Shown here one piece after another: positions 11,195 through 56,204 of a stretch of DNA of 64,000 nucleotides (the stretch's first letter is position 1; each line of letters opens with the position of its first letter). Source of the DNA: Acanthopleura granulata (Eukaryota > Mollusca > Polyplacophora > Chitonida > Chitonidae). The notes below the pieces were generated by a model. The model saw only the letters and a program-made list of their open reading frames with translations. It ran no database searches and had not been told where the DNA came from. Position numbers and translations under genes: made by a program. The DNA lies in contig JABBOT010000080.1 in assembly GCA_016165875.1 (NCBI GenBank), forward strand, positions 933,667 through 997,666, in the 5' to 3' direction.

Positions 11195-11445
11195 GGGGGG
11201 GGGGGCTCTGTGACTCAGTCGGTTAGTGCGCTCCGCAGCCCAGTGACCAAAGCGTTCGCTGTGAGTTCAGTAAGTCCAGCTCATGCTGGCTGCCTCTCCG
11301 GCCGTACGTGGCAAGCTCGGCCAGCAACCTGTGGATGGTCGTGGATTTCAGCCTGGCTCTGCCCGTTTTCCTCCCACCATCATGCTGACCACCGTCGTAT
11401 CAGCGAAATATTCTTGAGTACGGCGTAAAACACCAATCAAATGAA
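11195..11445 (+). repeat. Full-length tRNA-derived SINE
   Basis: The most complete copy in the window. The tRNA-like head has an A-box region (CTCTGTGACTCAGTCGGTTA) and a B-box-like GAGTTCAGTAAGTCCAGC. The conserved body follows (GGCCGTACGTGGCAAGCTCG, CCAGCAACCTGTGGATGGTC, TTTCCTCCCACCATCATGCT), then the 3' module GAGTACGGCGTAAAACACCA and an AT-rich tail. It is preceded by a G-run. Confidence 0.85.
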
Positions 11446-12239
11446 GAAATTTAAAATAGGTAGGCCTGATGCTGGCAGTAGCTGACATTGGCTATAGTGC
11501 TAATTCGGGCACCAGGGGAGTTAAACATTTGGCAGCATTTTTGCCATAAGTAGGCAATGGCTTCCCGAGACGTGCTCACCGTGAAACTTTTACTCATCTG
11601 ATCAGTGCACCTGCACATCTATATGAGTGAGTGGATGGAAGTAATGGCGGATAATGGACAAAGGATTGAACGGACTAGTGACCTGACGTGCAATCTTTCT
11701 TCATCAAACGGCTATTGTATTACGTGGATAAAGTTACTGGGCTTTGTTAGGTTTCCCCCCAAAAAAGAGACCTGAAGGTGGCAAATACAGGAAGGCAAAG
11801 TCCTAATTACCAAAACCCATTCTGTGTTAATATAATGGTATGTGGGCCTGTTGGGTCCAGTTTTAGATGTCTCCTATTTCAGGTTTGATTTGAATATGTA
11901 TTATTCCGTACATCTGACAATTAACATTTGTCCAACAGATAAACAGTGTTTCAACGTGGGATGAAATGAGAGGGCCGTTCAAGGTTCTGGTATGCTGGCG
12001 ACCGCATGCAATTACAAAAAAATTAATTTCTCTGGTCAAGTGACCTGGGAGATATATAGACATGAAAGCCTCGATCCATCCGCCTTCATTTCTATTGTGC
12101 ATTATGCCGACATACGGCATTGCCTGCAGGGATTGGGTTACAATCGCATGTTTAGCAATGATGCACCTGGAACTCAGTTCCATGGAATCTCAACTTAATA
12201 CCCAGAATATCTGTTACCATGGCATTAACCAGGGCAAAA
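11446..12239. other. Intergenic DNA, nothing recognised
   Basis: Open frames on both strands overlap one another and show no motif, codon pattern or splice context supporting a gene. Confidence 0.45.
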
Positions 12240-12416
12240 CATTGCAGGACTGGCTTCCTCTCTGTCCATGCGTGGAAAGGTGCCCCAACAACCTACGGAT
12301 GGTCGTGGGTTCCCCCGGGCTCTGCCCGGTTTCCTCCCACCATAATGCTGGCCGACGTCGTATAAGTGAAAAATTCTTGAGTACGGCGTAGAACACCAAT
12401 CAAATAAATAAAGGAA
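12240..12416 (+). repeat. SINE copy
   Basis: Body blocks GTGGAAAGGTGCCCCAACAA, CTACGGATGGTCGTGGG and TTTCCTCCCACCATAATGCT, plus the 3' module TTGAGTACGGCGTAGAACAC, ending AATAAATAAA. The tRNA head is degraded. Confidence 0.8.
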
Positions 12417-12654
12417 TAAACATTGTAGGATTATAAACACGTCAATGAAATGCCGGGAAAGGTGACATCCTGGCCTGGAACGCCTACACACCAAGTTATT
12501 GGCGAGGCACATATTGAGTTTCTTTGGGATGTTCTGCGCGTGTAAAGTTATTTCGGTTCAAGCCGATGTAGATCTAATACGAAAATTTTGCCACCTGGCC
12601 TCCTTTCCGAACCCATCCTTATTTCGCGTATTTTCTAAAGATGTACTCTGTTCT

Positions 12655-19950: not shown

Positions 19951-19954
19951 GCAG

Positions 19955-20745
19955 GGCCCATGGCTGGGCTGTGAGTGTATGGAGAGGTGAGGTTTAGGTG
20001 GTCAGGGGGTCCATGGCTGGGCTGTGGGTGTGTGGAGAGGTGAGGTTTGGGTGGTCAGGGGGCTGGGCTGTGGGTGTATGGAGAGGTGAGGTTTGGGTTT
20101 TCAGGGGGCTGGGCTGTGGGTGTATGGAGAGTTGAGGTTTAGGTGGTCAGGTGGTCCATGGCTGGGATGTGGGTATATGGAGAGGTGAGGTTTGGGTTTT
20201 CAGGGGGCTGGGCTGTGGGTGTATGGAGAGGTGAGGTGTGGGTGGTCAGGGAGTCGACGGCTGTGCTGTGAGTGTGTGGAGAGGCGAGGTTTGCGTAGTC
20301 AAGGGGTCAATGGCTGGGCTTTGGGTGTATGAAGAGGCGAGAGTTGGGTGGCCAGGGGACCCATGGGCAACTGTGGGTGTATGGAGATGCGAGATTTGGG
20401 TAGTCAGGAGACCCATGATTGGGCAGTAGGTGTATGGAGAGGCGAGGTTTGGGTGGTCAGAGGGTCGCTGGCTGCTCTGTGGGTGTATGGTGAGGTGAGG
20501 TTTGGGTAGTCAAGGCGCAAATGGCTGAGCTGTGGGTGTACGGAGAGGCGAGATTTGGGTGGTCAGGAGGCCCATGACTGGGTTGTGGATGTATGATGAG
20601 GCAAGCTTTGGAAGGTCAGGGGGTTCATGGCCGGGGTGTGAGTGTATTGAGAGGCGAAGTTTGGGTGGTCAGGTGACACATGGCTGGGCTGTGGGTTTAT
20701 GGCGAGGCCAGGGTTGGGTGGTCAAGGGGGGCATAGCCAGGCCCA
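19955..20745 (+). repeat. G-rich minisatellite, about 50-60 bp unit
   Basis: About a dozen imperfect copies of a unit built from CCATGGCTGGGCTGTGGGTG, TATGGAGAGGTGAGG and TTTGGGTGGTCAGGGGG. The unit varies in length because some copies lack the CCATGG part. The strand is strongly G-rich and C-poor. The open frames crossing it are a by-product of the repeat. Confidence 0.9.
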
Positions 20746-22502: not shown

Positions 22503-22507
22503 GAGTC

Positions 22508-22606
22508 AGCAGCAGGGGGGGGGGCATCGGGGAAAGTTATTTGGGGCAACTAACCCTCCCATAGTTCCCGGTTCTGGGATAACCGCCCTTATTTCCTGCA
22601 ATTAAG
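22508..22606 (+). repeat. Left terminal inverted repeat of the virus-like element
   Basis: Begins AGCAGCAGGGGGGGGGGCAT and includes CGGGGAAAGTTATTTGGGGC, AACTAACCCTCCC, GTTCCCGGTTCTGGGATAAC and CGCCCTTATTTCC, ending near GCAATTAAG. It pairs with 34804-34911 in reverse complement, with a few substitutions and small gaps (different G-run length, four extra bases on the right). A partial second copy of the CCTCCC..CCATAGTTCCCG block follows at about 22607-22630. The 5-bp target duplication GAGTC lies immediately to the left. Confidence 0.93.
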
Positions 22607-22657
22607 CCTCCCGGCCATAGTTCCCGTACCGGAGCGAGTATACCGAAAAACATAGGT

Positions 22658-22705
22658 GAGAGCCCCTGGGATACAGGCCCACCCCCCTCGCCGGCCCGGG
22701 CTCTC
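22658..22705 (+). other. GC-rich inverted repeat (hairpin) near the left end
   Basis: GAGAGCCCCTGGG (22658-22670) is complementary to CCCGGGCTCTC (22695-22705) with a small bulge, enclosing a C-rich loop. It lies between the terminal repeat and the first gene, where a replication or transcription control element could sit. Function unknown. Confidence 0.55.
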
Positions 22706-22855
22706 AGCGGGAGGTTCTGGACCGTTCGCTTAAGCCTCCCAGCTGATCATAATCATCGCTATTTTGATTCAGACACGCCTCGGAATGTAGTACACGTAAT
22801 CGTAATATTCCAGTTAGACAAATAGTTCCCTTACGGTATACCCTATGACATCAAC

Positions 22856-25800
22856 ATGGCATCGCATGCAGCAAGAGCAAGACAACTTCGAGACGAGTTC
22901 AAAGCCGTCACGGGGATATGGCCCCGATACCCCCGGTCCCGCGTAGCCCTCCAAGAATATCGCGAGACCCTTGACCGCTACAAAGCGGCCATGGCTGCCC
23001 GCAAGGCCAATATCGACCGGAAAAGGTCCGACGAGGACTTCGCTGACGAGTTCTCTCGTCTGAGCAAAATCGAAGGCGACTACTTCGACCTCGACACGCC
23101 TACTAGTGCCGGGAAGCTTGAAGGGTAAGCTGGCCGGCTCCTACAGCAAGTCAAGGCCCAACATCGACGTGAGGGCGCTGCCCACGTCTTCAGCTCCTGG
23201 AGGCAGGAGTCGCCCGACCCGTACGAGCTCGGCGACGTCGTCGTGGACGACAATATCCTCATCGGTAGCGGCAACGTCATCATTGACTACACCCTGACCG
23301 CAGAAAGGGCCGCAGAGGTCCTCAATAAACTCACAGCAGGAGGAGAATACATCGTCAAGGTGAAATTCCTCCGTGAGAAGGCCCGAGGTGACTGGGTCTT
23401 TGAAGATGCCTTCGCCCCCCTGGAACAAGGACGGACCCGGGGCGGCGAGGTCCTCGGGGTTACCTCAGCAACTCAGCCCGGTGCTCTGGAAGGGATTGAC
23501 CAACTGTACTACACCAATGCCTACCCTGTCAGTGCTGTTGTCTACGGCCTCTACCCCATCCGCGAGCCCGACGAGAGGAACCTCGATCCGATGCGAGACG
23601 GGGACCTCAATTGTGTTGTCCAGAGGGTTATCAAGCACGTCGAGGGGGCAAAGAGGGGCCATGGTCTTACCCCCGCCAGGCTCCGGAAGATCGAGGAGTG
23701 GGAGGCCAAGGTCCATGACACTGGCGCCAACCTTCAAGACATTTCCGGCCTCGAGACCATCCTCGAGCGGGCAATCATCGTCCGCGACATCACGGGTGCC
23801 GACCTCTATAACTCAGGGAAGAATCGGAGTGGAGGCCATCGAATCATCGAGCTCACGCTCCACAACGGTCACGCCTGGGGGGCTGACCTCCATTTCCCCC
23901 AAGCTCGCCAAGTCGTCATCTACGAAGGCGACGTGTGGGAAGCCCTCCGGGAAGCCACGCAAGACGGGCCCACGGCCGTCTGGGTCTTCGGAGGAGGAGA
24001 AGGTAGCCGGCGCCTCATAGTCAGCCTGTTCGTCCTCGAGGGTGGGCAGACTTACCGGACGCGAGCGACCCATGAAAGTATCCTGAGGACGTGCCGCGAC
24101 CTGGCGGCGGAGGATCCTGAAGCTTTGGCTCAAAAGGTCTTCGGCGAGAACCACGCCGCCAGCGTTGTCGCAAAAGAAAACAACGGCTGGAAGCCCACGC
24201 CTGTCGACTTCCTCGACATAGTGCAAAGCGCGTGCGTGGAACACGGCCATGGAGGCCTTTGGAATGCCGCGGCCTATAACGTGAACGACGTCGTCAGCAT
24301 CGACATGAAGGCCTGCTACCCCGCCTCGTTCCTGGGTAAAGGCGAAGCACTGGATGGTATGCGTCGCAGTCAACGGGCCCCTCCCGAAGGACATCGGTAC
24401 AGGCTTTGCCCAGGTCCGCGCATGGGAGTTCGCCGCTGGGGTCCACCCCGCGATCGTGGCCTGGTTCGGGGGGCATCTCCACAAGAAACAATGGGCTCCA
24501 ACCGCGCTGCTCGCCTACATGCGAGAGACGGAACTGCTCACCCGGCTCGAAGTCGCCGAGGCCATCGTTTCATTCGACAAGTAGAAGGAGGTCTGGTTGC
24601 CGGAGAGCCGTGACCTGGCGTGTTCGGTGATAGGTAAGTTTACGCAGGGAGCCAAGGCCGACGGCAAGAGGCGTACGTGGCGGCTTGTTACGGACCAAGG
24701 TGAGTTCGACTTCCTTGTCCGAGATACTCGCCAAAGTGGGACCCTCGTTGGAGCCCCCGAGGTCTGTCCCTTGGGCTGGATCCTCACCTACCACGATGGC
24801 AGCCAACCCCAGTACGCACACCTGCGGGCCTCGATGCTCGCATACGCACACATCAACCTGCTGGAGATGCTCAGCCGGTTCACGCCAGAGGAGGTAGTAC
24901 GGGTGGCCACGGACAGCCTCTACGTCAAAAAGGCAGCGCTTCACAAGCTCTAGGGTGTCAAGGCGTACGCGGCACCTGAAGTCCATCCCGACGGATTTTG
25001 CATAGAGTCCATAACCTGCCACGATCGACCCACGCCGGGGCCACCCTGAGAGGTCGCCCCGGCCCAGTAGCGCGACAAAGGCGAAAGCATCTTTGCCTGT
25101 TCGGACCATGCGGTCTACCAGCCTGAGCCCGGTCACTGGGAGGGCACACACGAGCTGGACGACAGCGCCGCGCCGCGCTACAGCGACCCGCTGACCAAAT
25201 ACCAGCAGAGCTACTTAAACGGGGCCGGTGGCTCTGGGAAGACGACACGTGCAACCGAGCTGTTCCGCGACAGGAAACCTCTGGTCTTCACCCCGACCCA
25301 CCGCTTGGCCAAAGAGATGAGTACCAGAGGGGTTGACGCCCAGACGTACCACTCTTTCTTCCAGTGGTCTGGTCAGACGGAGTGGACGGCGGAGCGCATG
25401 GGTCAGAAGTACATCCCGCGAGTCATCGTCTGGGACGAGGTGTGCACGGTGCCACGGCCGGTGCTCGAAACGTTCCTCGACTGGCTCCATCAGAGGTGCG
25501 TCCAGGTCATCTGCTGCGGAGACCAAGGCCAACCACCCGCCAATCGCAGGGGACGAGCCACACGCGTGGCTCCGGGAAAAGGACGACTACTACCAGGAGG
25601 TTACCGTCGACTACCGGAGCCGGTGCGAGGAACTGAAACCCTTGTACAGGAATATGAGGCTCCAGCCTGACCGGGTACAGTGTCAGGAGATGCGCAGGGC
25701 CCTCCCTGTATGCCGGGGCTGGGAAGACTTCGTCCAGGCTTGGCACCCCCGAGATCTCATACTAGTTTCCCGCAAGGGGGTGCGGGACAGCGCCCTGCGC

Positions 25801-26346
25801 CTGCTCTTCGAGCACCACCGCGGTGCCTTCCCGGATGAGCCAGTCCCACTCCTATATCGCCCGAGGGACACCCGCAGACAAAACGTCAAGGCCCAGATAC
25901 CCGGCGACGGCCAGCCAGACCAGCAAGAACTGGTCCTCAACGACGTCGTCCCGGTCCCGGTCAAGACCGCGGCCGAGGTCCTTGATGGCAAATGGGGGAG
26001 GGGGGGCGACTGGACTCTGTCGTATGCTATGACCATACACTCGAGTCAGGGGCTCACGATCGAGGACCCGCAAAAAGTCTGGATCGTCGACGACTACCTA
26101 CAGTGGAGCAACTTGGCTTACCTAGCCGTGTCCCGGGTCCGCTACCTCCGTCAACTGGCGAGATGTTGCCCCCCGCCGCCTGAAGCAGACAGCCATCCCG
26201 CGCCCCCGCCTGTCTACGACGAGGCCACAGCGAGGAGGAACATAGGCTATAAGCTCCAGAGTTACAAAATAACGGACGCTGGCAAGAGTGTCAGGGGGTA
26301 CCACAAGGAGCTCCTCACGGACAAACCCCCGCGGAGGGCCGTCTAG
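22856..26346 (+). pseudogene. Family-B DNA polymerase fused to SF1 helicase, broken
   Basis: The polymerase half has motif A (SIDMKACYP, Asp codon 24302), a motif B region (SVIGKFTQG, near 24627) and motif C (ATDSLYV, Asp codon 24912). The helicase half has Walker A (GAGGSGKTT, 25221-25247), Walker B (VIVWDE, 25422), a GDQ motif (25518) and C-terminal SF1 motifs (HSSQG, 26038; AVSRVRYLRQL, near 26125). Polymerase motifs B and C and the helicase start are in one frame, hence a fusion, about 1,160 residues. Breaks: TAA 23126, frameshift near 24345, TAG 24582, TAG 24951, TGA 25047, TAG 25068, frameshift near 25540. No DxE exonuclease motif is visible in the N-terminal part. The product would have copied and unwound the element's DNA. 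The end overlaps the opposing integrase. Confidence 0.88.
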
Positions 26347-27240
26347 CAGGTAGTACAACACTGGCTCATCGGGCTTAGTAACTGAGCGCCCAAGACGGTA
26401 CACCCCTAAAGACCATACAGGGTCAGTTGCACCACGCCGGCCACCTTCCAGCTCTCCCGCCTGGTAGAGGTAGCGAACGCCCACACCAGAGGGGAGTTTT
26501 CGCTCTGAGAGACCAACCGGGCGGCCGGGAATAACCGAAGAGGGCTTTTGTGTGAGCGGCGTCTTAGCCTTGATGGCATCCTTAGGCTTCTTACCAGTCA
26601 ACCGGGTCTCCTCACCGTTCAGAGTAGCGATGACGGCGGCCAGCCGAGCAACCCACGAGGTCGATCTCTGGCCTTCAGGGAGACGCATCTCCTGGCCGTA
26701 CTGGTGCTCGGCCAGGGTCCGATTGAAGCGCTCCACAATCCCCTGGTCACGGTGGATGTCCACACGATCGCGCCTGACAGAAACCCCGTGCTTGGCGAGC
26801 AGCTGGTTCACCGAACCCATGAACTCTCTCCCAGGGTCAACTTGGAGAAGCTTGGGCCACTTCAATGGCCCCCGTCTGTAGACCCGAGACAGAGCATCGG
26901 CAACCTCTGCTGCGGTCTTGCTGGCCAGGGGCTCTGCCGCTTTGTAACGTGAAGCAACATCGACCACGGTCAAGGCGTACTTGTATGTTCGCTGTCTTAC
27001 CTTATCGTGCGGAAGGAAAACGAGGACGGCCTGGTGGACCTCGTTTGGCTCCCCAACGTCGAACTTAGGCCGTGGAATATGCCTTGGAGCAGGTAAATAA
27101 ATCTGCCAGATGGGCCGGGCCACATCTTCAGAGACTCTCACAGCCTTAACAAGCTTCTTGATGGCTGCGAGCCCCTTCCAATACCCCTTGGGGCTATAGT
27201 AAAGATTCGCCAGGCGGACAGACAATTTCCTGGCGGACAT
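26122..27240 (-). CDS. Retroviral-type (rve) integrase, catalytic Asp missing
   Basis: An open frame of 372 residues. The rve core is clear: YKYALTVVDVASRYK, LLQVDPGREF (Asp135) and GIVERFNRTL (Glu170) give a D-x34-E spacing as in retroviral and Polinton integrases. The expected first catalytic aspartate lies on the first core strand (residues about 69-76, NEVHQAVLVF). Here residue 72 is Val (codon GTC, 27025-27027), a single-base difference from Asp, so the enzyme is probably inactive although its frame is open. A C-terminal chromo-like/SH3-like region may lie around 250-310. The last 65-75 residues are antisense to conserved helicase motifs and may be read-through past a lost stop. This enzyme class inserts the element and creates 4-6 bp target duplications, consistent with GAGTC. 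Confidence 0.9.
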   Translation of the reverse strand: MSARKLSVRLANLYYSPKGYWKGLAAIKKLVKAVRVSEDVARPIWQIYLPAPRHIPRPKFDVGEPNEVHQAVLVFLPHDKVRQRTYKYALTVVDVASRYKAAEPLASKTAAEVADALSRVYRRGPLKWPKLLQVDPGREFMGSVNQLLAKHGVSVRRDRVDIHRDQGIVERFNRTLAEHQYGQEMRLPEGQRSTSWVARLAAVIATLNGEETRLTGKKPKDAIKAKTPLTQKPSSVIPGRPVGLSERKLPSGVGVRYLYQAGELEGGRRGATDPVWSLGVYRLGRSVTKPDEPVLYYLLDGPPRGFVREELLVVPPDTLASVRYFVTLELIAYVPPRCGLVVDRRGRGMAVCFRRRGATSRQLTEVADPGHG

Positions 27241-27274
27241 GGTTTGCGAGATATTCCAGAAGCCTAATCAATCT

Positions 27275-27511
27275 TCAGCATGTGGAAGCCACAGGCTCAG
27301 GAAGCTGTCCAGTTGTCAACCGGAGGTTGGTGGGACTAGCCAGCACCCCTGCGGCGAAATGCATCGCGGTCTTCTCATCCTGTCGCCAGAGCTCGAGCGA
27401 CCTTTGTGCAATATTGATCACTGTGTGGGCCAGAGGACCAGGAATCTTGTGACGGCGAGCACAGAGGCCAACCCCCAACATGGCGAAGTAAAGCTCTTCG
27501 GGAAGACCCAT
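27275..27511 (-). CDS. Small hypothetical protein of the element
   Basis: 78 residues, starting MGLPEELYFAMLGVG. It lies 34 bp upstream of the integrase start on the same strand and has a TATA-like tract just upstream (27533-27548). Helical, with no recognised domain or membrane segment. Its position, open frame and absence of overlap with another gene support it being real. Function unknown. Confidence 0.55.
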   Translation of the reverse strand: MGLPEELYFAMLGVGLCARRHKIPGPLAHTVINIAQRSLELWRQDEKTAMHFAAGVLASPTNLRLTTGQLPEPVASTC

Positions 27512-27532
27512 TGTGGTTCTATACCAGGGCGG

Positions 27533-27548
27533 TATATAATATAATAGG
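27533..27548 (-). promoter_or_regulatory. TATA-like tract upstream of the 78-residue gene
   Basis: The minus strand reads CCTATTATATTATATA, ending 22 bp before the start codon at 27511. A short leader would follow if this is a TATA box. It might also drive the integrase. Motif only. Confidence 0.4.
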
Positions 27549-27607
27549 GGAAAATTAAAGCCACCTAGGTGGTGTCGGCAATGACACGTGTCGCCCCAAT
27601 CACCGGA

Positions 27608-27979
27608 TCACTTGGCGAGCTGATAGGCCACGAGGCCGGTTGCGGCCATCCCGATAATAACGAACGCTATCTCGCGATCCTTCTGACCTTCGGATGGTGT
27701 ATAGAAATCACTTAGGACGGGCTCAGATTCGACGGGAAGAGTTTTACCCCTGATGTGTGCATACTGACGCATTGCAGCATCCACGTCGCGAAAGGTGCGC
27801 TCAGCGTGACCCTGGCGGTGAAGTTCCTCATTAATCCAGTCTAGGCGCTCTGTTCTGTTCCGAGTTTACGCTCTTCGTCGACTCCCGAGCTTCGAAGAGC
27901 TGAGAACACGAAGCTGCTACCAGAAAACGCCAGAGTATTTAGTATTGCACCTAGAACCATCATTGCAATCGAGGCCATA
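27608..27979 (-). pseudogene. Small membrane protein of the element, frameshifted
   Basis: Starts at an ATG at 27977-27979 (MASIAMMVLGAILNTLAF, hydrophobic) and runs about 46 codons to a TAG near 27840. The adjoining frame then carries a convincing continuation (ERLDWINEELHRQG ... FRDVDAAMRQY ... LSDFYTP) ending in a transmembrane segment (AFVIIGMAATGLVAYQL) and TGA at 27608. One indel near 27,850 separates the halves. Both ends are hydrophobic with a charged middle. Possible minor virion or membrane-remodelling protein; that role is only a guess from layout. Confidence 0.6.
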
Positions 27980-27994
27980 CTACTAGTATACAAT

Positions 27995-28237
27995 CTACTT
28001 CACAATATTCGGAGGAATAATCCCCTGTTTAATTAGTATATCTTTTGTGAACATGGCGAGGTCAATGTCAAGGATGACCAAGCCTAGATCACGAGGGGGC
28101 GTGTAGTCAAGCTTTGGGACGGCGCCTCCGTTGACCATCTGACCTAGTCGAGAGTAGCCGATGGCAAGACCACCGACAACAGCACTATGATACGCCGCGT
28201 TGGCGAGCATCTTTCCGTCAGTTGTTGGAGTTGACAT
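27995..28237 (-). CDS. Small membrane-type protein of the element
   Basis: 80 residues, intact, starting MSTPTTDGKMLANAAYHSA. It has a weak hydrophobic stretch (AVVGGLAIGYSRLG, residues about 19-32) and an acidic, hydrophobic C-terminal half (LGLVILDIDLAMF). It lies 15 bp upstream of the frameshifted small gene on the same strand. No known family was recognised. Its position in a run of small genes beside the capsid module suggests a virion or assembly role. Confidence 0.6.
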   Translation of the reverse strand: MSTPTTDGKMLANAAYHSAVVGGLAIGYSRLGQMVNGGAVPKLDYTPPRDLGLVILDIDLAMFTKDILIKQGIIPPNIVK

Positions 28238-28268
28238 AATTATTCACCTCATATCATGAGGATCCCTC

Positions 28269-28820
28269 CTAATATCTAATATGTCTGGATATCCAATCTG
28301 TTGTGGTGGATCGGGCCTTTGTTCCACAGGTACTACGCGGATATACTAACGCCGGATGCTGGCGTAACAACCACCAAACAAGACCAAGACTGGCTGCAAC
28401 GCCTCCAACAATCAAAAGAGTAGTAGAGACCTCTGGCCATTTTGGTGTAGACTCCTGAGGGTCTTTGTTGGCCTGAGGGTCTTTGGGAGCTGGACTGGGG
28501 TCTTCTCTACTCGGTGGCGCTCGGATCGTAGTATCAGCTTGCTGCTTGACCTTTTGGAGTTGTTCCTGCTTGGTTTTCTTCCTTGCAGCTGCTCCAGCCT
28601 TCCCCGCAGCAACTTTTTGGGGATCTTTAGTTTTAGTTATCCGTAAAGGTTCGGGGGTATCCGGACTTTGATCAACTTGAGTCGAACTGTCTAGCTTCGT
28701 CTCCTCCGGTGGTGTCATTTTCTGCTTCGTCTCCTCCGGTGGTGTCATTTTCTGCTCCGTCATCATTATCGTATGTAGTTCTCGGGCATGCATGTCCAAA
28801 TTGCCAGCATGCATATCCAA
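28269..28820 (-). CDS. Hypothetical protein with tandem repeat and one membrane segment
   Basis: 183 residues as an open frame. An inner start at MMTEQKM (residue 19) is as likely as the first ATG. Two tandem copies of QKMTPPEETK come from an exact 30-bp duplication (28695-28724 and 28725-28754). A Lys/Ala/Gln-rich, probably helical middle and a Pro/Asp-rich linker precede one transmembrane helix (TLLIVGGVAASLGLVWWLL) and a basic tail. The domain order (disordered, basic, membrane anchor) is like a structural or DNA-contacting virion protein, but no family is recognised. The start overlaps the end of the upstream gene. Confidence 0.55.
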   Translation of the reverse strand: MDMHAGNLDMHARELHTIMMTEQKMTPPEETKQKMTPPEETKLDSSTQVDQSPDTPEPLRITKTKDPQKVAAGKAGAAARKKTKQEQLQKVKQQADTTIRAPPSREDPSPAPKDPQANKDPQESTPKWPEVSTTLLIVGGVAASLGLVWWLLRQHPALVYPRSTCGTKARSTTTDWISRHIRY

Positions 28821-29324
28821 ATTGACAGTGCTTCAAAGTTGTCAAAGCTGCTGTGAAGGGAGCTAGAAACATACCATAGCGATGATACAGTTCGCATGTA
28901 GCAGTGCGAAGCGCATGACCCACAAATGGACCAGTGCCCAGGTCAGCAGCCAGCTTGGCTGATTTTCTGGAGGAATCGGCAGGAACAGTGACGCTAACCC
29001 AGAGTACATGGTCACCGCGGTTTGTCCGAGAGTCTTGGTCATAGCTGCACCAAGTTGTAGCTCATAACGAGCATACAGCTTTTCAATTTCTTTATCGCTC
29101 ATAGATTCGATCTGTTCGAGTGCAAGGGCTCTTCCGAGATACTGTTTACTCTGCCCACCAGCAACAATTGCTTCTAGGCGGTCTCGTTTTTGCATGCCAC
29201 TTCCCATTCCTCTCCTCTGTTGTTCCGATGATTCGTTGTGGCTGGATTCTGCCGGCCCCTGGGGTTGGTGTCCAGTGTCACCATCATCCTGCAGGAGCCC
29301 GTCGATAAATTCATCAAAATCCAT
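28672..29324 (-). pseudogene. Conserved-looking element protein, frameshifted
   Basis: The best start is MDFDEFIDGLLQDDG (ATG 29322-29324), not the upstream in-frame ATG at 29357. The N-terminal half is acidic, Gln/Ser-rich and helical (SMSDKEIEKLYARYE). Near 28945 the coding sense moves to the next frame, where KLAADLGTGPFVGHALRTA and CELYHRYGMFLAPFTAALTT continue a plausible helical protein to a stop at 28672. The alternative continuation in the first frame is short and of odd composition. The end overlaps the next gene. Function unknown. Confidence 0.55.
28695..28754 (-). repeat. Exact 30-bp tandem duplication within a coding region
   Basis: Two identical 30-bp units (plus-strand start CTTCGTCTCCTCCGGTGGTG) keep the frame and add ten residues to the hypothetical protein. 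Perfect identity implies a recent event. Confidence 0.95.
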
Positions 29325-29481
29325 GGTAGCAAATATAGTTCGAAATCTTATCACCAAATACTCTTAAAGTCTAATATACTGCCAGGCAAACCACCCGAAG
29401 AGAGATAAAATCAGAATTTGGGAACAAACTAAAGGCAGCAGAGCGCCGCAGGTGATCTGTTCACTCATGTGCTTAAGCAAG

Positions 29482-29525
29482 ATGCTAATGTGCTATAAGC
29501 AGAATGCTAATGTGCTATAAGCAGA
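29482..29525. repeat. Exact 22-bp tandem duplication at the ATPase 3' end
   Basis: ATGCTAATGTGCTATAAGCAGA occurs twice back to back (29482-29503 and 29504-29525; the unit is 22 bp). It covers the shifted-frame stop of the ATPase. Confidence 0.9.
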
Positions 29526-30158
29526 CAACATATTCAGCGGGCTGGTCAGTCTCTAACAGAAGCTTGGCATGTTTCGTCTTTGCGAGGCGTTGACGAACCT
29601 CCATTCTTTCTTCGTGATTGCCGATCACATCATTTCTTCTAGGCAATAATTAAATGAGTTTCTGTCTTTGCAGTGGAAGAGGTCAGTGCAACGCGTCTGT
29701 TCTCGCAGATCCTTGAGGACAGAGTTATACTTCTGGGTGAGCACCAAGACGCTTTGTTCTGCGTGTCGGCCTGAGAAAGCCAGCTGATAAAGCATGTCCT
29801 TCTTTTTTGTCAGCGTCCTTGTGACTGAGCAGTCGTCAATGATGTATAGGGTGGGCTCACCTTTAAAGAGCGAGGATAGAGCTCGAAGGCAGTCATGCAA
29901 CCTCTCACCCGGGTTGAGGACGTAGATCTCAGGTTCGTCCCAGATCCATCTACGCGTTTGGTAAGTTTTGTTGTACCGTATCGTGGGACATAGAATCACA
30001 ATATGTTCGAAGGTCCCGCGGAAGTGGCTCTCAAGCAGATCGAGAGTGAACACCGTTTTCCCACACCCTGTCTGCCCGCAGATGATGGCTGAGTGAGGGT
30101 CTTTTGGGAGAAAGTGGTAATGGTTAGTAGATTGCGTTGACAAACCTGCCATTTTCAA
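29515..30158 (-). pseudogene. Packaging ATPase (FtsK/HerA, A32-like), 3' frameshift
   Basis: An open frame of 177 residues from 30158, stopping at 29625. Walker A is GQTGCGKT (residues about 28-35), Walker B is LYIIDDCS and a sensor-like strand is SVLVLTQKYN. These fit the A32-like/FtsK-HerA genome-packaging ATPases of Polintons, adenovirus-like and large DNA viruses, which pump DNA into the capsid. After the early stop the neighbouring frame carries NHEERMEVRQRLAKTKHAKL and ends at TAG 29515-29517, so a one-base change near 29632 has cut off about 38 residues. The start overlaps the capsid gene end by 35 bp, as expected for coupled late genes. Confidence 0.85.
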
Positions 30159-31409
30159 TGTTAAGCTGCGCGTCCATGACCATGTAGAGGTATATATTCA
30201 ATGGAGCATGTTCCTCAGCCTCCTTTGTAATCTGGATCGTAACTCCTTCGCTTGCATTTTGCACCCGACGCCCGCTGCCGTGCAGCCTGTCATCGTCCGT
30301 GCTTCTAAAGTCGAGCCACAGGGCATACTTCGTCGTGAGATACTCACCAAACGAGACGTCTGCGAGTCCGGCATCTTTGATAACTTCTGCCACTTCTGCA
30401 GGCCGCTTAAGGCCACCGGCGAAATTCTTTCTAGCCTCTTCCCACTGCTGGTAAGGACGCATGCCTTGACTATAAAGCTGGTTCGGAATTCCCTCAATGG
30501 TTGCCTCAACCTTGGTGATTTTCGGGTTGCAGAAGTGTTCGGTGTTTCTATTCCAGGCCGATCCTGTGGGTTCCTCGAACAGCATAAGGACGCCTTTCAT
30601 ACTGCGTGCGGGGACGTTGATGTTGATATTCCAAAGGGTGTCGTTTTTGTCGTACGAGATTTTGCGGTGGCGCAGGATCCTGTCGTACAGGATCGCTAGG
30701 CGGCCGTGGTACTGATTGCGGACAATGCGGGCCAGCTCAGCATCGGTGACCATCTCGTACTCCAGGGATATGTTATCGATCGTGTATTTCGCTTCAGTGT
30801 CATCGGTAGCCTTTACAACCCTGCTATAGTCGTTGAAGGTTAGCTCATACTCAAGGCGGTCTCCCAGTGCAGCTTGGTAGAAAGACATGTGAGACTCCAG
30901 AAGCTCGAAATCGAGTGGAATGTAGAACCGGTTCCCATACGCATGTGCGATGGCTTTGTCAACCTTCTTGTTGGCGTTGAAATCAGCTGCTCCGACTCTG
31001 GCTTTCGTGACGTTCTGATCTCGGCTGGTGTCGATCGCCTGGTACTGAGCGTTGTTGCGTTCCAGCGCAGTCTTCCATAAGTCACCATAACAGTGGTAGA
31101 CGTCGGAGTCGTCAATGCTCATGACCTCATTCCCACTAATCTTGATTGTTGTCTTTTTAACCACAGCGCGCCCTATGTTCTGGACACTAGTTCGGTTTTC
31201 ATCTGTTGAATCTAGGGAGATTGTGAAGGCCAGACGTGCTGTTCCAGGAACGATTACATCGTGGTCATCGAGATTGGGAAACCTGACCAGTAGCTGCTGA
31301 TTCTGGTCAATTCTGCTTGGGTTGTTGGTTATCACAACCGAATGCCAGATGCCCTTGACACCGAAGGCATCCCGCAGTCTGCGATGAGGGTTAAGTATTG
31401 TTCAGCCAT
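30124..31409 (-). pseudogene. Probable major capsid protein (F54H12.2-like), 5' frameshift
   Basis: Open from 31335 to 30124 (403 residues). The likely true start is MAEQYLTL at 31409, with one indel near 31385, after which HRRLRDAFGVKGIWHS joins the long frame, giving about 428 residues. Blocks include LLVRFPNLDDHDVIVPGTAR, SGNEVMSIDDSDVYHC, IPLDFELLESHMSFY and EGIPNQLYSQGMRPYQ. It is beta-rich with a conserved-looking pattern seen in the animal family often labelled F54H12.2-like; these proteins occupy the major-capsid position next to the packaging ATPase in Polinton-type elements. The double jelly-roll assignment is inferred from size, neighbours and pattern, and structure prediction could test it. 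Confidence 0.75.
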
Positions 31410-31472
31410 GTGAGCTATATACTACTGTTGAAGTCTTATATAGATATAGGCGTGGAGTCTAACTGATAAAAA
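31410..31472. promoter_or_regulatory. Divergent intergenic region with TATA-like motifs on both strands
   Basis: 63 bp between the capsid start (minus) and the coiled-coil gene start (plus). The minus strand has TATATAAG (31434-31441), about 25 bp before the capsid ATG. The plus strand has TTATATAG (31437-31444), about 30 bp before the ATG at 31473. One AT-rich core could serve both genes. Confidence 0.5.
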
Positions 31473-32774
31473 ATGGATGTTGATCCGCAAAGCTTCGACA
31501 TTGATGACCCAAACGTCGGAGATGATGATGTTGAGATTCGCCAGGCCTCGACACCCCATCACCTACGGGGGCATCCAGTCGACCGGAGGAATCTAGAAAC
31601 TTACAGCCGCTGCAACGGGAGCTTTTGGAAGCTGCTGTCAACGATTATTACGAGGCACTAAAGGAAGAAAACGGAGAGATACCGAGTTTGGGTATGGACT
31701 ACAACAAGTTCATAATTAAAGATGACGGCTCGCTGCGCCTTGAGGCTCATCCAAATATTGTTTTATACAACAGTCGTGGAAAAAAAACCCGCTCGCACTG
31801 TCAACAATATCTGGAAGAATTGGACTTGGGGGGACCAACGCCATCCGAGACGAGCTAGGATTTGTTGACTGGCCAAGACAAAAGAAAAATATATCTTCCG
31901 AAGCTGCTGCAGCTACCAAACTGGTGACAAAAATCTAGGTGAGGTCGCAGCTAAGGTATATAGTGTGGAACTGAAAGATCTTGGGCAAGTGGCACAGGAC
32001 GCATCAAATGTGGTTCAAACAATGGAAACCTCCTTGACTGACGATGACATAAACGCGGCTCTTGAAACATATGGTGATCCACCTTTGACACCTTTCACTC
32101 CTCGCGAGATTAGAGGACAAGACAAGGCTCTGCGGACTATTTCGTAGGGAACTCACAAACAACCTTGCCAAGCTGTCTGCACTGGACGACCACATTGCTT
32201 TGGAAAAAAGAAAGTTAACTGAGGCGGGTGATGATGAGGAATCTAAACAGCGTGTTAGGAATCGCCTGTCAGACCTTGAGGATGAGAGGGCAGCTCGTCT
32301 TGAAGCCGCATCGGCATGCCGCGATTCTCTGCGCTCGCAAATCAATCGGGTGCGGGGGACAATCAAGCGCGTCCTTTACTCAGACACCACACTCGCTGAG
32401 CGCCTCCGTACTTTGTTTCGCGAACAAGGTATCACTATAGCCAGTATCCTTACTGCGTTGGGTTTCATCGCATCAACATTGGTACTTGCTCTTACCGGTG
32501 GTGGTGGTGGGACAGCTCCACCCGCGCCTCCAACTCCACCTGACAGCGGAGGCGGCGTAAAGGAGGGGATTAAAATTAACACTTGAAATCTTTGGGCTCG
32601 CTGTTAGCAAAGCTCGCTGGTAAAGCCGCGTCTTCTCTCCCAGGCATAAAAGGAAGTATCGTCTCTTGGCTCCTCGGTTTCTTAGGCAAGGCCGTGAGCT
32701 GGCTTGCTGAAAATACCTGGACTCTTGTTCTCGCCGCTGGTGGTATTATTACGCAGCTGTTCGAGCGCATCTAG
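31473..32774 (+). pseudogene. Coiled-coil/membrane virion-type protein, multiple frameshifts
   Basis: One gene appears spread over three frames. Segments that read as protein: MDVDPQSFDIDDPNVGDDDV (31473 on), RELLEAAVNDYYEALKEENG (near 31620), GGTNAIRDELGFVDW (near 31830), LKDLGQVAQDASNVVQ (31965 on), FRRELTNNLAKLSALDDHIA (near 32145), then a long charged coiled coil and GITIASILTALGFIASTLVL (to 32586) with a Gly/Pro-rich linker, and a last segment with two hydrophobic amphipathic helices (PGIKGSIVSWLLGFLGKAVS) ending at 32774. At least five frame changes. The acidic N-terminus, coiled coil and hydrophobic C-terminus suggest a membrane-active minor virion protein, but no family is named with confidence. 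Ends against the opposing gene. Confidence 0.6.
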
Positions 32775-34048
32775 CGTAGCCAAATAAATGCAAGCCCAAT
32801 GGCGACTCCAATCAAAACCACGGCAGTTTTATTTTCATCATGGGTGGATTTTTCCGGTCTCGATAGCAAGGATGAAGAATCTGTAGCTGGTACAGGTACT
32901 GCAGGTTGAGCCGGCACAGGCACCGAAGCAGGGTGTGGTTTTACTTTTAGCTCCTCAGTTGGCACTGAAGGCATGGGTATAGAGTTTATCTCATCATTTA
33001 CCCCGAGACTCTGACTCGTAGTTGCTATGACAATCTTGTTGTTGTAGCCACTGATTTTTCCAATGCGGAGATCCATATCACTTGGCGCCATGTACAGACC
33101 AATGCCAAACACATAATCAATTTTGGAACAAGCATAACGCAAGACATCCTGGTACCGCTTTATAGCTGAGGGGAGGTCGACAGGGCGACTAATGGCGTCC
33201 TCAACATTAGCTATGTACTGTTTCTGGGCGTCAAATGCAGAACCCGTTCCTAAAATACTAGCGCGGGTCTGCGCCTGTGCTCCTAGAATCGCCCACACAT
33301 AGGTTCTGATACTATCGTTCACACGTTCTACGCCAGCTTCAGTGAACCCTTCCGATTTGTCAAGCATGAAGGCTTCCCAGCCGTGGTCGGTTTCCTTGCC
33401 TTGCGCAATAAAGTCAATATGTAACTTACTTGTTTTCGCTCGACTGAAGGACATGCTGCTTGGGTCGTAGAGGCCTCGTGATGTTTGCATATAACCAGCC
33501 CTTGTTGCGTAATAGTAAGCCTCACCCAGCCCGTCATTCGCGCTCTTGTTTTGGCGCCAGTTAGTGTTCGGAGAAACCCCCAACTCTCCGCAGATCTGCT
33601 CATATGCCCTCTGGTCGTACGGGTTGTTCGTCGCACTCCAGGCTTTGTCTTGTGGTAGAGCTGCCTTAATCTCTTCCAGAATACGACGCACTTGGTAGTA
33701 CACATGGAAGTGGAACATAGAGCCAGAAAGACCACCAGACGAAAGATGGTCTTGCTTCGAAATCCCGCAGCCTGTAGTGGCACACCACACAGCGAAATTG
33801 AGTTGGTTCTGCCACCACATCATTGGTTGTGTGTGCCATTTTTGGACTAGACGGTCGTCAGAGATCTTTGGCAGGGTATAGCGTTCAAACACCTTTTGGA
33901 AGGTGACGTTGAAATCCCATGCGGTGCGGTTTTTACTGGGATCTATAACCACGATTTCACTCGGCTCCTGCACCGCACCGGGTACAGAAAACACCCCGCC
34001 TGTGCGGTACTTTGCATCCTTATTGAATATGTATGCTTTATTATCCAT
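32771..34048 (-). CDS. Large conserved-looking protein of unknown role, intact
   Basis: Open for 438 codons. The first ATG (MDNKAYIFNKD) is at 34048, giving 425 residues; the extra upstream codons would need a TTG start. Features: a Trp-rich block (WHTQPMMWWQNQLNFAVW), a mostly helical mixed body (YQVRRILEEIKAALPQ, YEQICGELGVS, YYYATRAGYMQTSRG), a Pro/Val-rich linker (about 370-400) and a C-terminal transmembrane helix (AVVLIGVAIGLAFIWL) ending in Arg. No frameshift or stop is seen, unlike most neighbours. It starts 12 bp from the divergent penton-candidate gene. Placement suggests a structural or entry-related membrane-anchored virion protein; no homology is claimed. Confidence 0.75.
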   Translation of the reverse strand: MDNKAYIFNKDAKYRTGGVFSVPGAVQEPSEIVVIDPSKNRTAWDFNVTFQKVFERYTLPKISDDRLVQKWHTQPMMWWQNQLNFAVWCATTGCGISKQDHLSSGGLSGSMFHFHVYYQVRRILEEIKAALPQDKAWSATNNPYDQRAYEQICGELGVSPNTNWRQNKSANDGLGEAYYYATRAGYMQTSRGLYDPSSMSFSRAKTSKLHIDFIAQGKETDHGWEAFMLDKSEGFTEAGVERVNDSIRTYVWAILGAQAQTRASILGTGSAFDAQKQYIANVEDAISRPVDLPSAIKRYQDVLRYACSKIDYVFGIGLYMAPSDMDLRIGKISGYNNKIVIATTSQSLGVNDEINSIPMPSVPTEELKVKPHPASVPVPAQPAVPVPATDSSSLLSRPEKSTHDENKTAVVLIGVAIGLAFIWLR

Positions 34049-34060
34049 AGCTTTATAACT

Positions 34061-34729
34061 ATGTACGTTATACTCAGTGATGTTCAAAACGGCGGAAGTG
34101 TTATTCTACCGTCATGCCTGGATAATCAGAATCGTCAGTATGAGGTTGCTCTACTCGAAATTACATTATATCCCCTTTGGCTGAACATTGGCCCTGATGC
34201 AAAGTTCACCCTGAACGGCGAGTTAATGTACGTTCCAAGCAGCTACTACAACGTGTGCACCCTGAACAAGGAAGTGTTCCGGCCCAAGGGTGTGGCATTA
34301 AGACTGAATGAGGCTACAGGGCATCTGCAGCCGAAAACCGGTGATAATAAAATCGGACTACTCAATCTGGCAAAGGCACTGGGGTTCCCCAACGCATTAG
34401 ATCTCCTGACCGGCACAATTGAGGGGGACGAACTGCCAGAACTGGTACCTTTGAAGGAAATTTTGGTTCACCTGGACGAGGTGAGCACTTCGGAGAATCT
34501 TAATTCAGTGAATGGCAGTAGAGCTCGTGGCTCTACTCTTCTGAGAGCAGTCCCAGTTACTAATGAGGGCATTAACTGCGGCAAAACCGTCTCATTCCCT
34601 AACCCTCAGTATAAAATTATGCAGTCGGGGTTCGTATCAGAACTAACTATGAAAGTATTAGACGCACATAGTCGACCTATAAATATATCATACCTAAGCG
34701 CGACTTTACATATTCGGCCTACAAGCTAG
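34061..34729 (+). CDS. Probable penton/minor capsid protein, intact
   Basis: 222 residues from ATG 34061 (MYVILSDVQNGG) to TAG 34727-34729. An upstream in-frame extension exists but overlaps the opposing gene and is not favoured. Beta-rich: YEVALLEITLYPLWLNI, then a helical insertion (GLLNLAKALGFPNALDLL), then LKEILVHLDEVSTSENL, and a C-terminal strand set (ELTMKVLDAHSRPINISYLS then ATLHIRP). This ending, a strand pair followed by T-L-H-I/F-R, is typical of penton/minor capsid jelly-roll proteins in Polinton-type elements. It is the last gene before the right terminal repeat. Assignment is by pattern and place, not by a search. Confidence 0.6.
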   Translation: MYVILSDVQNGGSVILPSCLDNQNRQYEVALLEITLYPLWLNIGPDAKFTLNGELMYVPSSYYNVCTLNKEVFRPKGVALRLNEATGHLQPKTGDNKIGLLNLAKALGFPNALDLLTGTIEGDELPELVPLKEILVHLDEVSTSENLNSVNGSRARGSTLLRAVPVTNEGINCGKTVSFPNPQYKIMQSGFVSELTMKVLDAHSRPINISYLSATLHIRPTS

Positions 34730-34803
34730 GATAGAAAATGACTGATTCAGGTGGACCTGCTGGTTCCTCTATCAACCCCACCTGCACAACAAACCTCACT
34801 GAT

Positions 34804-34911
34804 CTTAATTGCTGGAAATAAGGGCGGCTATCCCAGAACCGGGAACAATGGCTGGGAGGGTTAGTTGCCCGAAATAACTTTCCCCGATGCCCCCCCCTCC
34901 CCCCCGCTGCT
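34804..34911 (-). repeat. Right terminal inverted repeat of the virus-like element
   Basis: Reverse complement of the left repeat (22508-22606), with small differences such as AGCCATTG for ATAG and a longer interrupted G-run. Ends GCTGCT at 34911, followed directly by the second copy of GAGTC (34912-34916). About 75 bp separate it from the penton-candidate stop. Confidence 0.93.
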
Positions 34912-34916
34912 GAGTC

Positions 34917-37135
34917 TGAATACGTCACCATTAAAAATAATTTGTAATTGTCAAGCAGTGACATGTAGCAACTGTGGGATGACTATCTCCGATCAGTCAT
35001 GGGGATTACGGGCCAGGTTGCCATCCAGAAAACACACCATGCAAGCTCAACATGAAGGGATACAACGTGGGTTCACTGTCTTTATAATGGCAGTCAAGAA
35101 CTTGACTCACAAACTGAACTGCCCAAATACACACAGAGGAACATTATCGTTTTACTCAGAAGCCATTATACAATTTAACAATACCTTACAAATACATTTT
35201 AGCTACCTTCAATACAACTGTTTAATGTACGTCATATGTGCAAGACAGGCCTACGCATGGCAGTCAATAAAAACACATTAAGTCTCTAAGGCCTGTCCAG
35301 CGAAGCGAAAGGTCGTTCCTTGCATGGAAGGCTTACAAGTACTGCAGTGTACTTCCCAGAAAAACAAAAACGACACTTGCATCCTGTTGTTTCTGACTGT
35401 GATTAACTGCTGCTCCCCAGGCTACTGTCATTGTCCCCATTACTGGTTATCATAGGACCGACAGAGACGGACTATGTATGGTGAATAGGTACACACTGCA
35501 TGAAGCTGTATAATTCACAGAAACATGACCTGTGCAAAACACCCGATTGTCTACTTACCACGGCGATTTACTAAATAGCCTTCTTTAAATTTTTCCATGA
35601 AACAATAAGGTATAGGGCAAAACAGAGGTGTCAGTTCTGGATCGCTTATGTGGAACACATCAGAGAGTTTGCATCGAATATTATAACAAAACTTAACAAA
35701 AATTATTCCACATTTTGAAGCAAAAGTTGCCAGACTGATAATGGGTGATGGTGTGTTACAACGCGATTTCAACTCCCTTAACATTCATTAAATATACACG
35801 TATTACAAAATTTGTGCTGTAACAAGTTGTGTTTCAGATATTAACGCATTTTGTAATAGCGCAATTCACAACAAATATGTTTCTGAAAGTGGTTACCGTC
35901 ATAAAGCAGGTTGTAGGTCGACTTGCGATCGTAAGCAACTAGGACCAACTCGACACAGCGACCTACGCCTAACGCTTATGTCGAAAGGTTTGACAAAACC
36001 TTGGGATCGTGAGCAACTAGTGTCTCAGTTTCAGTTTCGGTGGGCGTACGTCGACTACGGCTGGCGGCAAGTGAGTGCAGATACTTAGCATGCAACGTGA
36101 CTGTCATATAACCTGTTAATTGTAGCAACGCCTATGTTCACGGTGCGTGGATGTAACTGATATAATGCCTTCATACCTTTAAATTGTCTGACAAATTTAA
36201 AAACTAAATCAAACTTTTTACAATAAAACAACTCCGGGCGTTGCAAATTGTAATAAGTTTTACAAAGCTTCACTCTCGGGTTTGCAGTTTATAATAATGT
36301 ATTTTGTATCTTACCACCATTATAGGAAGACAAAATGGTTTGAATATGGAGTTCAGTGGGTTTTTTGGTCAGTTTCTATTTAGAAATTCAATTTGAACAA
36401 ATCACAAAACTCAATATTTTTGCATCACCAATGTATCCAAACAACGTAACTATGAAAATTTATTTCTTGAAAACTCGTTTAAAATTCAATTTTCCGATAT
36501 TTGTCGTTGTGTTGACCAGAATGAGAAAGTGGCTAGAAAAACCTCTGCGATTTATCCTAGAATGTGACTGTTAACTCATAATTCGTATCGAATTTTAGTG
36601 GTTTAGGGAGAGTCCGATGTGAATGCACTAATAATGTGCAAACTATGTAAACTATGTCCACTGACTCGTGACTTGTCTTTCAATCAATAGGACGCACGCA
36701 GTGTGGCTTTGAAAGTAGGGCTTTGTTCAGTAGAATAACTAAGTCCGCTCAGCCTATCTTACATGGCTACATGGAGCATACAATAGACAGAACAAACAAT
36801 ATCAGATGTTTCCCAGTCATTTTTTTTAGTGATTATGTCGAAAAGCTATCCAGTGTCATTCATCCTATTCCTATATAAATGTCTCAGCCATATCTGTTTT
36901 CATTCCATGGCGAAAGTGAAAACAACTTTTTTTTTTCCACGAAGCTTGAACCCGGCTTACGTGCCAGTGTTTTTAGAACATACATGTAGACATTTTTCAG
37001 GTAAAATAATAACCGAGGACAGCTACAGTTACGTATTACTTCACTGGGACTTGCTTAGCGCTGTTACACTTATGGACTTCGCTTATATGCGACGGCAGTC
37101 AGGTTGATGTGAGAAAAACCGGAGAACCAAGAGCG
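34917..37135. other. Host DNA right of the element, no gene seen
   Basis: AT-rich, with scattered short open frames that have no motif support. No RNA gene or clear repeat was recognised. Confidence 0.45.
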
Positions 37136-37139
37136 CGAT

Positions 37140-37645
37140 CGGTTGCTGGCGACCTCACAGTACCAGGGCAATCATTTGCAGGCGACATCACTGTGCCAGG
37201 GCGATCCGCGTTGCAGGCGAGTTCATTTTACCATTGCGATCATTTGCAGGCGACCTCACTGTGCAATGGCGATCAGTTGCAGGCGATCTCACTGTGCCTG
37301 GGCGATCAGTTACAAGCGGCTTCACTGTGTCAGGGCGATGACATACAGGCATCCTCCATGGTCAGGGCTATCAGCTACAAGCGGCTTCACTGAGCCAGGG
37401 CGATTCGCTGCAGGTTACCTCACGGTGTCTGACCGATTAGTTGCAAGCGACCTCACTGTGTTAGGGCGATCAGTTCCATAAGGCCTCACTGAGCAAGGGC
37501 GATCTGTTGCAAGCGACCTCACTGTGTTAGGGCGATCATTTCCATATGGCCTCAGTGTGCCAAGGCGATCAGTTGCAAGCGACCTCACTGTGTTAGGGCG
37601 ATCAGTTCCATACGGCCACACTGTGCGGGGGCAATAAGTTATATG
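37140..37645 (+). repeat. Minisatellite, about 33-bp unit
   Basis: About fifteen imperfect units of the type GGCGATCAGTTGCAAGCGAC then CTCACTGTGTTAG. Later copies alternate with a variant carrying TTCCATAC/ATATGGCC in place of TTGCAAGCGACC, hinting at a higher-order unit. Open frames over it are a repeat artefact. Confidence 0.9.
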
Positions 37646-39259: not shown

Positions 39260-39440
39260 ACATATTTATTCATTTATCTGATCGGTGTTTTGCGCCGTAC
39301 TCAAGAATATTTCACTTGTACAACGGCGGCAAGCATTATGGTGCGGGAAAACCGGGTAGGCCGGGGGAAGCCCACGACCATCCGCAGGTTGCGGACAGAC
39401 TTCCCACGTACAGCTGGAGAAGAAGCCAGCTTCCTACAAA
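39260..39440 (-). repeat. SINE copy, minus orientation
   Basis: Reverse complement of the main SINE: TGTTTTGCGCCGTACTCAAG, AGCATTATGGTGCGGGAAAA, CCACGACCATCCGCAGGTTG, then TTCCCACGTACAGCTGGAGA. The tRNA-like head is lost. Confidence 0.8.
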
Positions 39441-44670: not shown

Positions 44671-45016
44671 GACCACTGATCTATAGAAGTTAGTGAGCCA
44701 CATCACACTGACCAATGGAAGTCAGTTAGCAGCTTCACAATGACCACTTGACAACAGAGGTCAGTGAGCCACACCACAATGACCACTGGTCTGCAGAGGT
44801 CAGCTGGCTGCTTCACAAGGACCACTGGTCTGTAGAGGTCAGTTAGCAGTAGAGGTCAGTTAGCAGCTTCACAGTCACCATTGGTCAGCAGAAGTCAGTT
44901 AGCAACTTCATGCTGACCACTGGTTTGTAGAGTCAGTCAGTCACTTCACACTGACCACTAGTCTACAGAAGTCAGTTAGCCACAAAACGCTGACCACTGG
45001 TCTGTAGAGGTCAGTT
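44671..45016. repeat. 39-bp tandem repeat in the PCIF1 3' region
   Basis: About nine units of GACCACTGGTCTGTAGAGGT then CAGTTAGCAGCTTCACAAT (39 bp), with 10-25% divergence and one partial internal duplication. Begins only 14 bp past the PCIF1 stop codon, so it is likely transcribed in the 3' untranslated region. Confidence 0.85.
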
Positions 45017-56091: not shown

Positions 56092-56204
56092 TTTATGAAT
56101 GCTGACAACAGGGAGAACACATGTCCTTGAGTCCTTTGAAAAAAAAACAAAACGCAAGACAGATGAAGATCATATACATGTATTCATTGTATTTGATTGT
56201 TGTT

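Follow-up and report, generated by a model that had tools for sequence, protein, structure and literature searches.

Which group of viruses does the inserted block at 22508-34911 of this DNA belong to? The stretch that was analysed, hereafter the window, comprises 64,000 nucleotides of the genome of the mollusc Acanthopleura granulata, and the initial annotation assigned the block to the Maverick/Polinton class. Animal members of the supergroup are as a rule regarded as Polintons/Mavericks, with a polymerase of their own and a 6-bp scar. A place among the Mavericks/Polintons proper was not supported, as the target duplication is 5 bp instead of 6 bp long and the replication enzyme is of the type of Tlr1 and the polinton-like viruses. 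Very probably, the block is a provirus, now decayed, from a Tlr1-like lineage of integrating DNA viruses that belongs to the polinton-like supergroup and is present in many copies.

Ends of the element and length of its scar

The element (22508-34911, 12,404 bp) starts with AGCAGC and ends with GCTGCT, so that its termini are of the AG...CT form of Polintons/Mavericks. It is enclosed by an exact 5-bp target-site duplication, GAGTC, at 22503..22507 on the left and 34912..34916 on the right. When starts from 22505 to 22524 were combined with ends from 34900 to 34919 and a flanking repeat and a terminal match of at least 4 bp each were demanded, a single pair (5 bp, AGCAGC) passed both thresholds, and the boundaries and flanks first proposed are therefore exact. 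The imperfect inverted repeats, announced as about 100 bp, measure 99 bp on the left (22508..22606, + strand; (AGC)2 at the start followed by a G-run) and 108 bp on the right (34804..34911, - strand; (GCT)2 at the end). They are identical in 86 of 94 aligned columns (22517-22606 versus 34804-34897), and their alignment score of 149 compares with a maximum of 38 over 300 random pairs from the window. A 36-base core of the end repeat occurs twice in the window and not at all in 100 shuffles. GC content is 0.48-0.62 in 2-kb intervals wholly within the element versus 0.41 and 0.39 in the 10-kb flanks.

The window is part of a contig of 50.9 Mb (C83) in a genome of 606.5 Mb and 87 contigs. The initial annotation had made the search for other copies with the same ends the test of its reading, and such copies were found in this genome: the end repeat was matched 22 times, the window's own pair included. 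Copy counts of the genes are lower bounds, with at least 124 matches for the capsid, many with stops (99 of 995 candidates scored), and at least 82 for the polymerase-helicase (40 of 955 candidates scored). A hand count gives 25 capsid rows with 85% identity or more, spread over 21 loci of which the window is one, and identities of 48-79% for the remainder.

Both ends were found in eight copies. Seven of these, the window copy included, carry exact 5-bp duplications of seven different sequences, and none carries a longer one, so that the 6-bp duplication of Polintons/Mavericks is not seen here and the 5-bp duplication claimed for this integrated virus holds at the level of the lineage. The duplications outside the window are AAAGC (C1a, 46794728-46807138), ATTGA (C5, 8454504-8467686), CTTTT (C1b, 44934639-44949034), CTCTA (C83, 104890-120046), CAGTA (C11b, 19146844-19162034) and ACAGT (C8, 5269118-5282706). 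Taken alone, GAGTC in the window might be read as a 6-bp duplication that has suffered one substitution, the termini being unequal, but this is unlikely with exactly 5 bp in all seven copies. Loci with one end or none (C49, C32, C29, C25, C83:421432, C6 and C10:12162954) were left out of the duplication count. Among 14 larger stretches checked for ends, L024, L026, L030, L033, L036 and L037 were without end repeat, L029 and L035 held repeat pieces without the end motif, and L034 had one end with its partner missing. By eye, AGCAG stands at the junction in 13 of 14 end stretches, the exception being L022. Over the eight copies, the divergence between the left and the right repeat ranges from 0.007 to 0.072 substitutions per aligned pair, and the copies are therefore probably of different ages.

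Two observations on these copies are recorded here. Capsid matches of identical score lie at paired places (C1:23792464 and C81:343575; C83:429663 and C83:451518; C3:967635 and C80:138176), which would represent duplicated or haplotypic sequence in the assembly. In the C8 copy, a second end motif lies some 300 bp inward from the left end (L031, C8:5265500-5270500), possibly a nested insertion or an internal repeat.

The polymerase-helicase fusion and the other genes

The replication gene is best understood from its relatives, for which motifs were counted in the 44 listed proteins of at least 1000 aa (1005-1367 aa). Most of these hold, in one open frame, vOTU-like motifs, a protein-primed PolB (pPolB) palm, a Pif1/RecD-type helicase and an HNH-like end. 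The helicase fusion claimed in the initial annotation is borne out: of the 44, 39 have palm motif A and 39 have Walker A. Palm and SF1 helicase stand together in P0221, P0122, P0136, P0242 and others, and also in the fold of P0257; a pPolB free of a helicase, as in Polintons, was thus not what we found. An artefact of adjacent genes was rejected because palm and helicase share single open frames in the relatives and, judged from these sequences, the fusion is real. Motif C reads ATDS in 41 of the 44, TTDS in one and AIDS in one, and ATDS in the window copy too; the first Asp of the usual DTD is thus changed, as in Tlr1-like enzymes.

In the window copy the gene lies on the + strand in three blocks, each in another frame, as tblastn with four full-length relatives shows. 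Block 1 (22838..24367; 51-72% identity to these relatives) holds the N-terminal part with the vOTU-like Cys (23609-23620) and His (23861-23878) motifs and palm motif A (24302-24325). Block 2 (24345..25538) holds palm motifs B (24636-24650) and C (24906-24917) and Walker A (25230-25244) and B (25431-25442), the SF1 helicase being recognised by Pfam AAA_30 (2.2e-10). Block 3 (25537..26295), identified by tblastn and motifs, is the C-terminal half of the helicase. As the gene sits in three frames with in-frame stops, the provirus in the window is dead as it stands.

The two outer parts of the fusion protein were read from motifs. A self-made HNH-like pattern occurs in 36 of the 44 relatives, in agreement with the C-terminal nuclease of the Tlr1 type, and Pfam HNH is marginal in P0171 (0.058). 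Matches of P0257 reach residues 1161-1162, in the HNH-like end, in the copies C8, C1b and C11a; tblastn with four relatives did not find this domain after the third block in the window copy. Candidate vOTU-like motifs are NCV (40 of 44) and HNxHA (36 of 44); their equation with vOTU is our own reading, and no vOTU match was among the 50 listed fold matches of P0257. As regards the exonuclease part, the fold alignment of P0257 to phi29 polymerase starts at phi29 residue 55, and the distance from the vOTU-like His to palm motif A is 126-169 residues (34 rows). Neither the window pieces nor ten relatives have a Pfam polymerase match, and annotation keyed to Pfam polymerase models can therefore miss the lineage.

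The remaining genes of known type are on the - strand. An rve (retroviral-type) integrase frame, as in Polintons, lies at 26122..27267 (PF00665, 3.2e-8, 34.2 bits, cut-off 32.6). It is open, its first acidic residue is not assignable with confidence, and a comparison with solved structures gave nothing at E 0.01. The A32-like genome-packaging ATPase lies at 29625..30197 (PF04665, Pox_A32, 1.1e-10, 41.9 bits, cut-off 22.8). The frame at 30124..31401 lacks the relatives' N-terminal residues and usual start, and encodes what relatives, alignment and fold matches point to as a double-jelly-roll (DJR) capsid protein. It has 2417 relatives, and 15 aligned ones from other sources are 66-76% identical along its length. 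Pfam Capsid_N, the capsid N-terminus of nucleocytoplasmic large DNA virus (NCLDV) type, is found in 12 of 16 family members and stays under its cut-off in the window (0.0012); the capsid profile gave only poor matches to solved structures, the best at E 0.21. The pairing of DJR capsid and A32-like ATPase typical of Polintons is thus found here, with a capsid model of low confidence. No Ulp1-type protease was matched by Pfam among the 17 frames scanned.

Other parts of the element are open frames without assigned family. Two are on the - strand at 27275..27607 (no Pfam match) and 28269..28832 (none above its cut-off). Three adjoining or overlapping frames at 31535..32586 (+), with a hydrophobic stretch near the end, are possibly one broken gene. 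A 444-aa frame at 32771..34105 (-) is a candidate virion gene and a 292-aa frame at 33851..34729 (+) a candidate minor capsid gene, both without Pfam match.

Kinship, competing explanations and proposed cycle

A 494-aa frame upstream of the helicase has 137 relatives, of which 120 were listed; these include Elysia crispata and E. marginata, Desmophyllum (a coral), a single Scyliorhinus entry, Gigaspora, Cetraspora and metagenome-assembled genomes (MAGs) of Thiodiazotropha. The last of these we take to be a clam symbiont, and its matches are therefore probably host DNA. Among the matches listed that carry a species name, those of Elysia sea slugs come closest to the polymerase piece, which fits a molluscan host. 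A search from residues 250-863 of P0122 gave 159 proteins (120 listed), many of which exceed 1000 aa and carry palm and helicase in a single frame. The family also occurs in the mycorrhizal fungi Diversispora, Gigaspora, Racocetra, Cetraspora and Ambispora, to which the polymerase-helicase proteins P0293, P0308, P0290, P0314 and P0309 belong. In a quick tree of 52 rows, hand-picked from listed relatives together with the stop-free window piece and thus confined to family members, the window falls in a 17-row set (SH-aLRT 99) that includes six Elysia rows. Elysia, with seven rows in all, appears at two places, and the ten fungal rows lie on one side of a branch (100) as one group. A shark protein, P0212 of Scyliorhinus torazame (56% identity over 44% of the query), stands near invertebrate and clam-symbiont-MAG rows in another tree and would be either a vertebrate insertion or contamination.

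A scan of a viral contig collection with few exact patterns yielded no relatives, and a scan of a genome-contig collection yielded a single fragment. This 4602-bp contig (L001), from a MAG labelled Diapherotrites, is probably eukaryotic contamination. It contains the same capsid (best segment at 68%), the ATPase and a conserved small virus gene adjoining them, the capsid module having stops in frame. The small gene lies in the window at 28672..29363 (-), broken across two frames (tblastn to L001, 54% and 71%, two pieces). The element, first described as complete-ended, is indeed complete in its ends but not in its genes: the fusion gene and the small gene are broken. On the strand opposite to its capsid module, L001 has a polymerase-like frame (1698-2774) that differs from the fusion and has no Pfam match at E 0.1; presumably it resembles an ordinary Polinton polymerase.

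Could the block be something else? An assembly join or contamination, raised only as a caution in the initial annotation, has a negligible probability and was ruled out because copies sit at independent loci, where the terminal repeats, the duplications and the two marker genes are found again; the contig, moreover, is 50.9 Mb long. A usual animal Polinton/Maverick (Eupolintoviridae, previously Adintoviridae), its scar a little out of the ordinary, would account for the gene classes, for the AG...CT termini and for short tandem end repeats such as the (AG)3 and (AGT)2 of vertebrates, as excerpts of PMC8097293 give them. It seems improbable, however, in view of the 5-bp scar of seven of the eight copies and of a polymerase-helicase fusion with altered motif C. 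Unlikely, too, is a spread purely as an intracellular transposon, with capsid genes that are leftovers or form no particle. The high copy number, with many capsid matches interrupted by stops, and the empty result from the viral contig collection would fit it; but that collection was scanned with few exact patterns, the capsid is conserved over its length in the 15 aligned relatives, and a distribution over animals and fungi fits movement from host to host. It is possible, and we consider it tentatively, that the element is a chimera in which the ordinary Polinton polymerase gave way to a Tlr1-type replication gene while the backbone of capsid and integrase stayed Polinton-like, in swaps that recur. 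Third-position GC is 0.70-0.76 in the fusion gene versus 0.44-0.64 in the other genes of the element, and L001 pairs the same capsid, ATPase and small gene with a different polymerase-like frame. Sea-anemone Polintons with a polinton-like-virus capsid have been suggested to be chimeric as well (excerpts of PMC4642659). L001 is one short contig, though, and the fusion and this capsid are no one-off pairing, since a listed capsid match lies within 10 kb at 18 of 40 polymerase-helicase loci.

We thus prefer the decayed provirus of a Tlr1-like lineage, against which several points weigh. The other 22 of the 40 loci have no listed capsid match within 10 kb, C1a and C11b have no listed polymerase-helicase match (40 of 955 candidates scored), and one of the eight copies with paired ends, C11a (18586312-18601683, repeat-match coordinates), has no duplication. 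The capsid model is of low confidence (pLDDT 51.7); its fold matches with a root-mean-square deviation (rmsd) of 3-6 are limited to residues 8-239 or so, and those spanning both halves have an rmsd of 14-16. The Tlr1-like assignment was made by layout and motifs against published descriptions, the trees being confined to family members, and the vOTU and terminal-protein parts are putative, being read from motifs. Particles, a terminal protein and active copies are likewise putative.

On the provirus reading, a linear double-stranded genome would be copied by the protein-primed polymerase fused to its Pif1/RecD-type helicase. The protein primer may be the N-terminal part of the same polypeptide, freed by its vOTU-like protease, as the literature on the Tlr1 type and the motifs suggest. 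Replication would start at the termini, whose tandem triplet, (AGC)2, could allow end repair by jumping back, by analogy with adenovirus and phi29, in which ends are repaired in this way. The rve integrase would then insert the linear genome with a 5-bp stagger, giving the duplications observed, and the products of the capsid and A32-like ATPase genes would build and fill DJR particles. We are evenly divided on whether these viruses form a family of their own outside Polintoviricetes, that is, a high-copy integrating DJR lineage with a Tlr1-type polymerase-helicase, a fixed 5-bp stagger and a protein-primed start at (AGC)2, living in animals (sea slugs, coral, this host, perhaps shark) and mycorrhizal fungi. 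If so, they would place the replication module of polinton-like viruses firmly in animals. Such a second lineage in animals, with helicase and polymerase fused, a 5-bp scar and, in each genome, many copies that vary in age, bears on how DNA viruses exchange replication modules, and lets one ask if scar length tracks the integrase lineage and if a polymerase without the first Asp of motif C still copies genomes.

Surroundings and comparison with known systems

Outside the element, a 464-aa reverse transcriptase frame lies at 51322-52716 (-; RVT_1 1.8e-6, just below cut-off), by eye Penelope-like with a GIY-YIG-like tail. The Forkhead transcription-factor gene at 62174-63526 (-; PF00250, 5.5e-29) is presumably FoxH-like. 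At 54865-56169 (-), one frame has a WW domain (2.2e-9) and another presumably resembles PCIF1. Dispersed short repeats, SINE-like, in both orientations and 60-84% alike, occur at 8968-12418, 39263-39359, 47876-47961, 53529-53600 and 56179-56649, and minisatellite arrays at 19954-20730, 37135-37640 and 44674-45016 (units of 53, 33 and about 39 bp).

Among the papers listed, a full-text literature search gave no title or abstract opening on this fusion in molluscs or on a 5-bp Polinton scar, which is not proof of absence. A paper on a coral polintovirus is said to exist. Transpovirons presumably differ from the present element in having no capsid and no rve integrase. They are like it in a fused helicase of the same type, according to parts of the literature. 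With Polintons/Mavericks (Polintoviricetes, Eupolintoviridae, adintoviruses) it shares the rve integrase, A32-like ATPase, DJR capsid and inverted repeats with AG...CT ends. It is unlike them in its helicase-fused polymerase, its end motif (AGC)2 and its 5-bp scar, where excerpts of PMC8097293 give 6-bp duplications and the end motifs (AG)3 or (AGT)2 for vertebrate Mavericks. OmPLV of Oxyrrhis likewise has SF1 helicase and pPolB in one protein, but according to PMC12721341 it has the reverse domain order, a full exonuclease, a tyrosine recombinase and no target duplication.

Among animal elements, the Polintons of Nematostella are alike, by description, in a capsid outside the main Maverick cluster (excerpts of PMC10120064 and PMC4642659). 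Bellas and colleagues place no metazoan capsids other than those of cnidarians outside that cluster, and Yutin and colleagues suggest that two sea-anemone Polintons possibly combine a polinton-like-virus capsid with Polinton enzymes, as far as these excerpts go. They are described there with a Polinton pPolB and rve integrase, unlike the present lineage, which may run parallel to them with a polymerase of the Tlr1 type. A species list for two trees of Tlr1 proteins includes Hydra (excerpt of PMC3671162), which hints that an animal member was perhaps seen earlier.

The closest likeness is to Tlr1 and the polinton-like viruses with the pPolB-S1H layout ('Tlr1-like helicase'; Aquintoviricetes). 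According to excerpts of PMC11071308, which describe this layout and report an rve integrase in Tlr1 as well, the two agree in the N-terminal region, the candidate vOTU-like motifs, the palm with changed motif C, the C-terminal SF1 helicase, a C-terminal nuclease-like domain (here in the relatives) and the rve integrase. The end is HNH-like in the present lineage and GIY-YIG in Tlr1. Compared with Tlr1 by description only, the present lineage is distinguished by its hosts, animals and mycorrhizal fungi, and by elements of 12.4-15.2 kb with measured 5-bp duplications.

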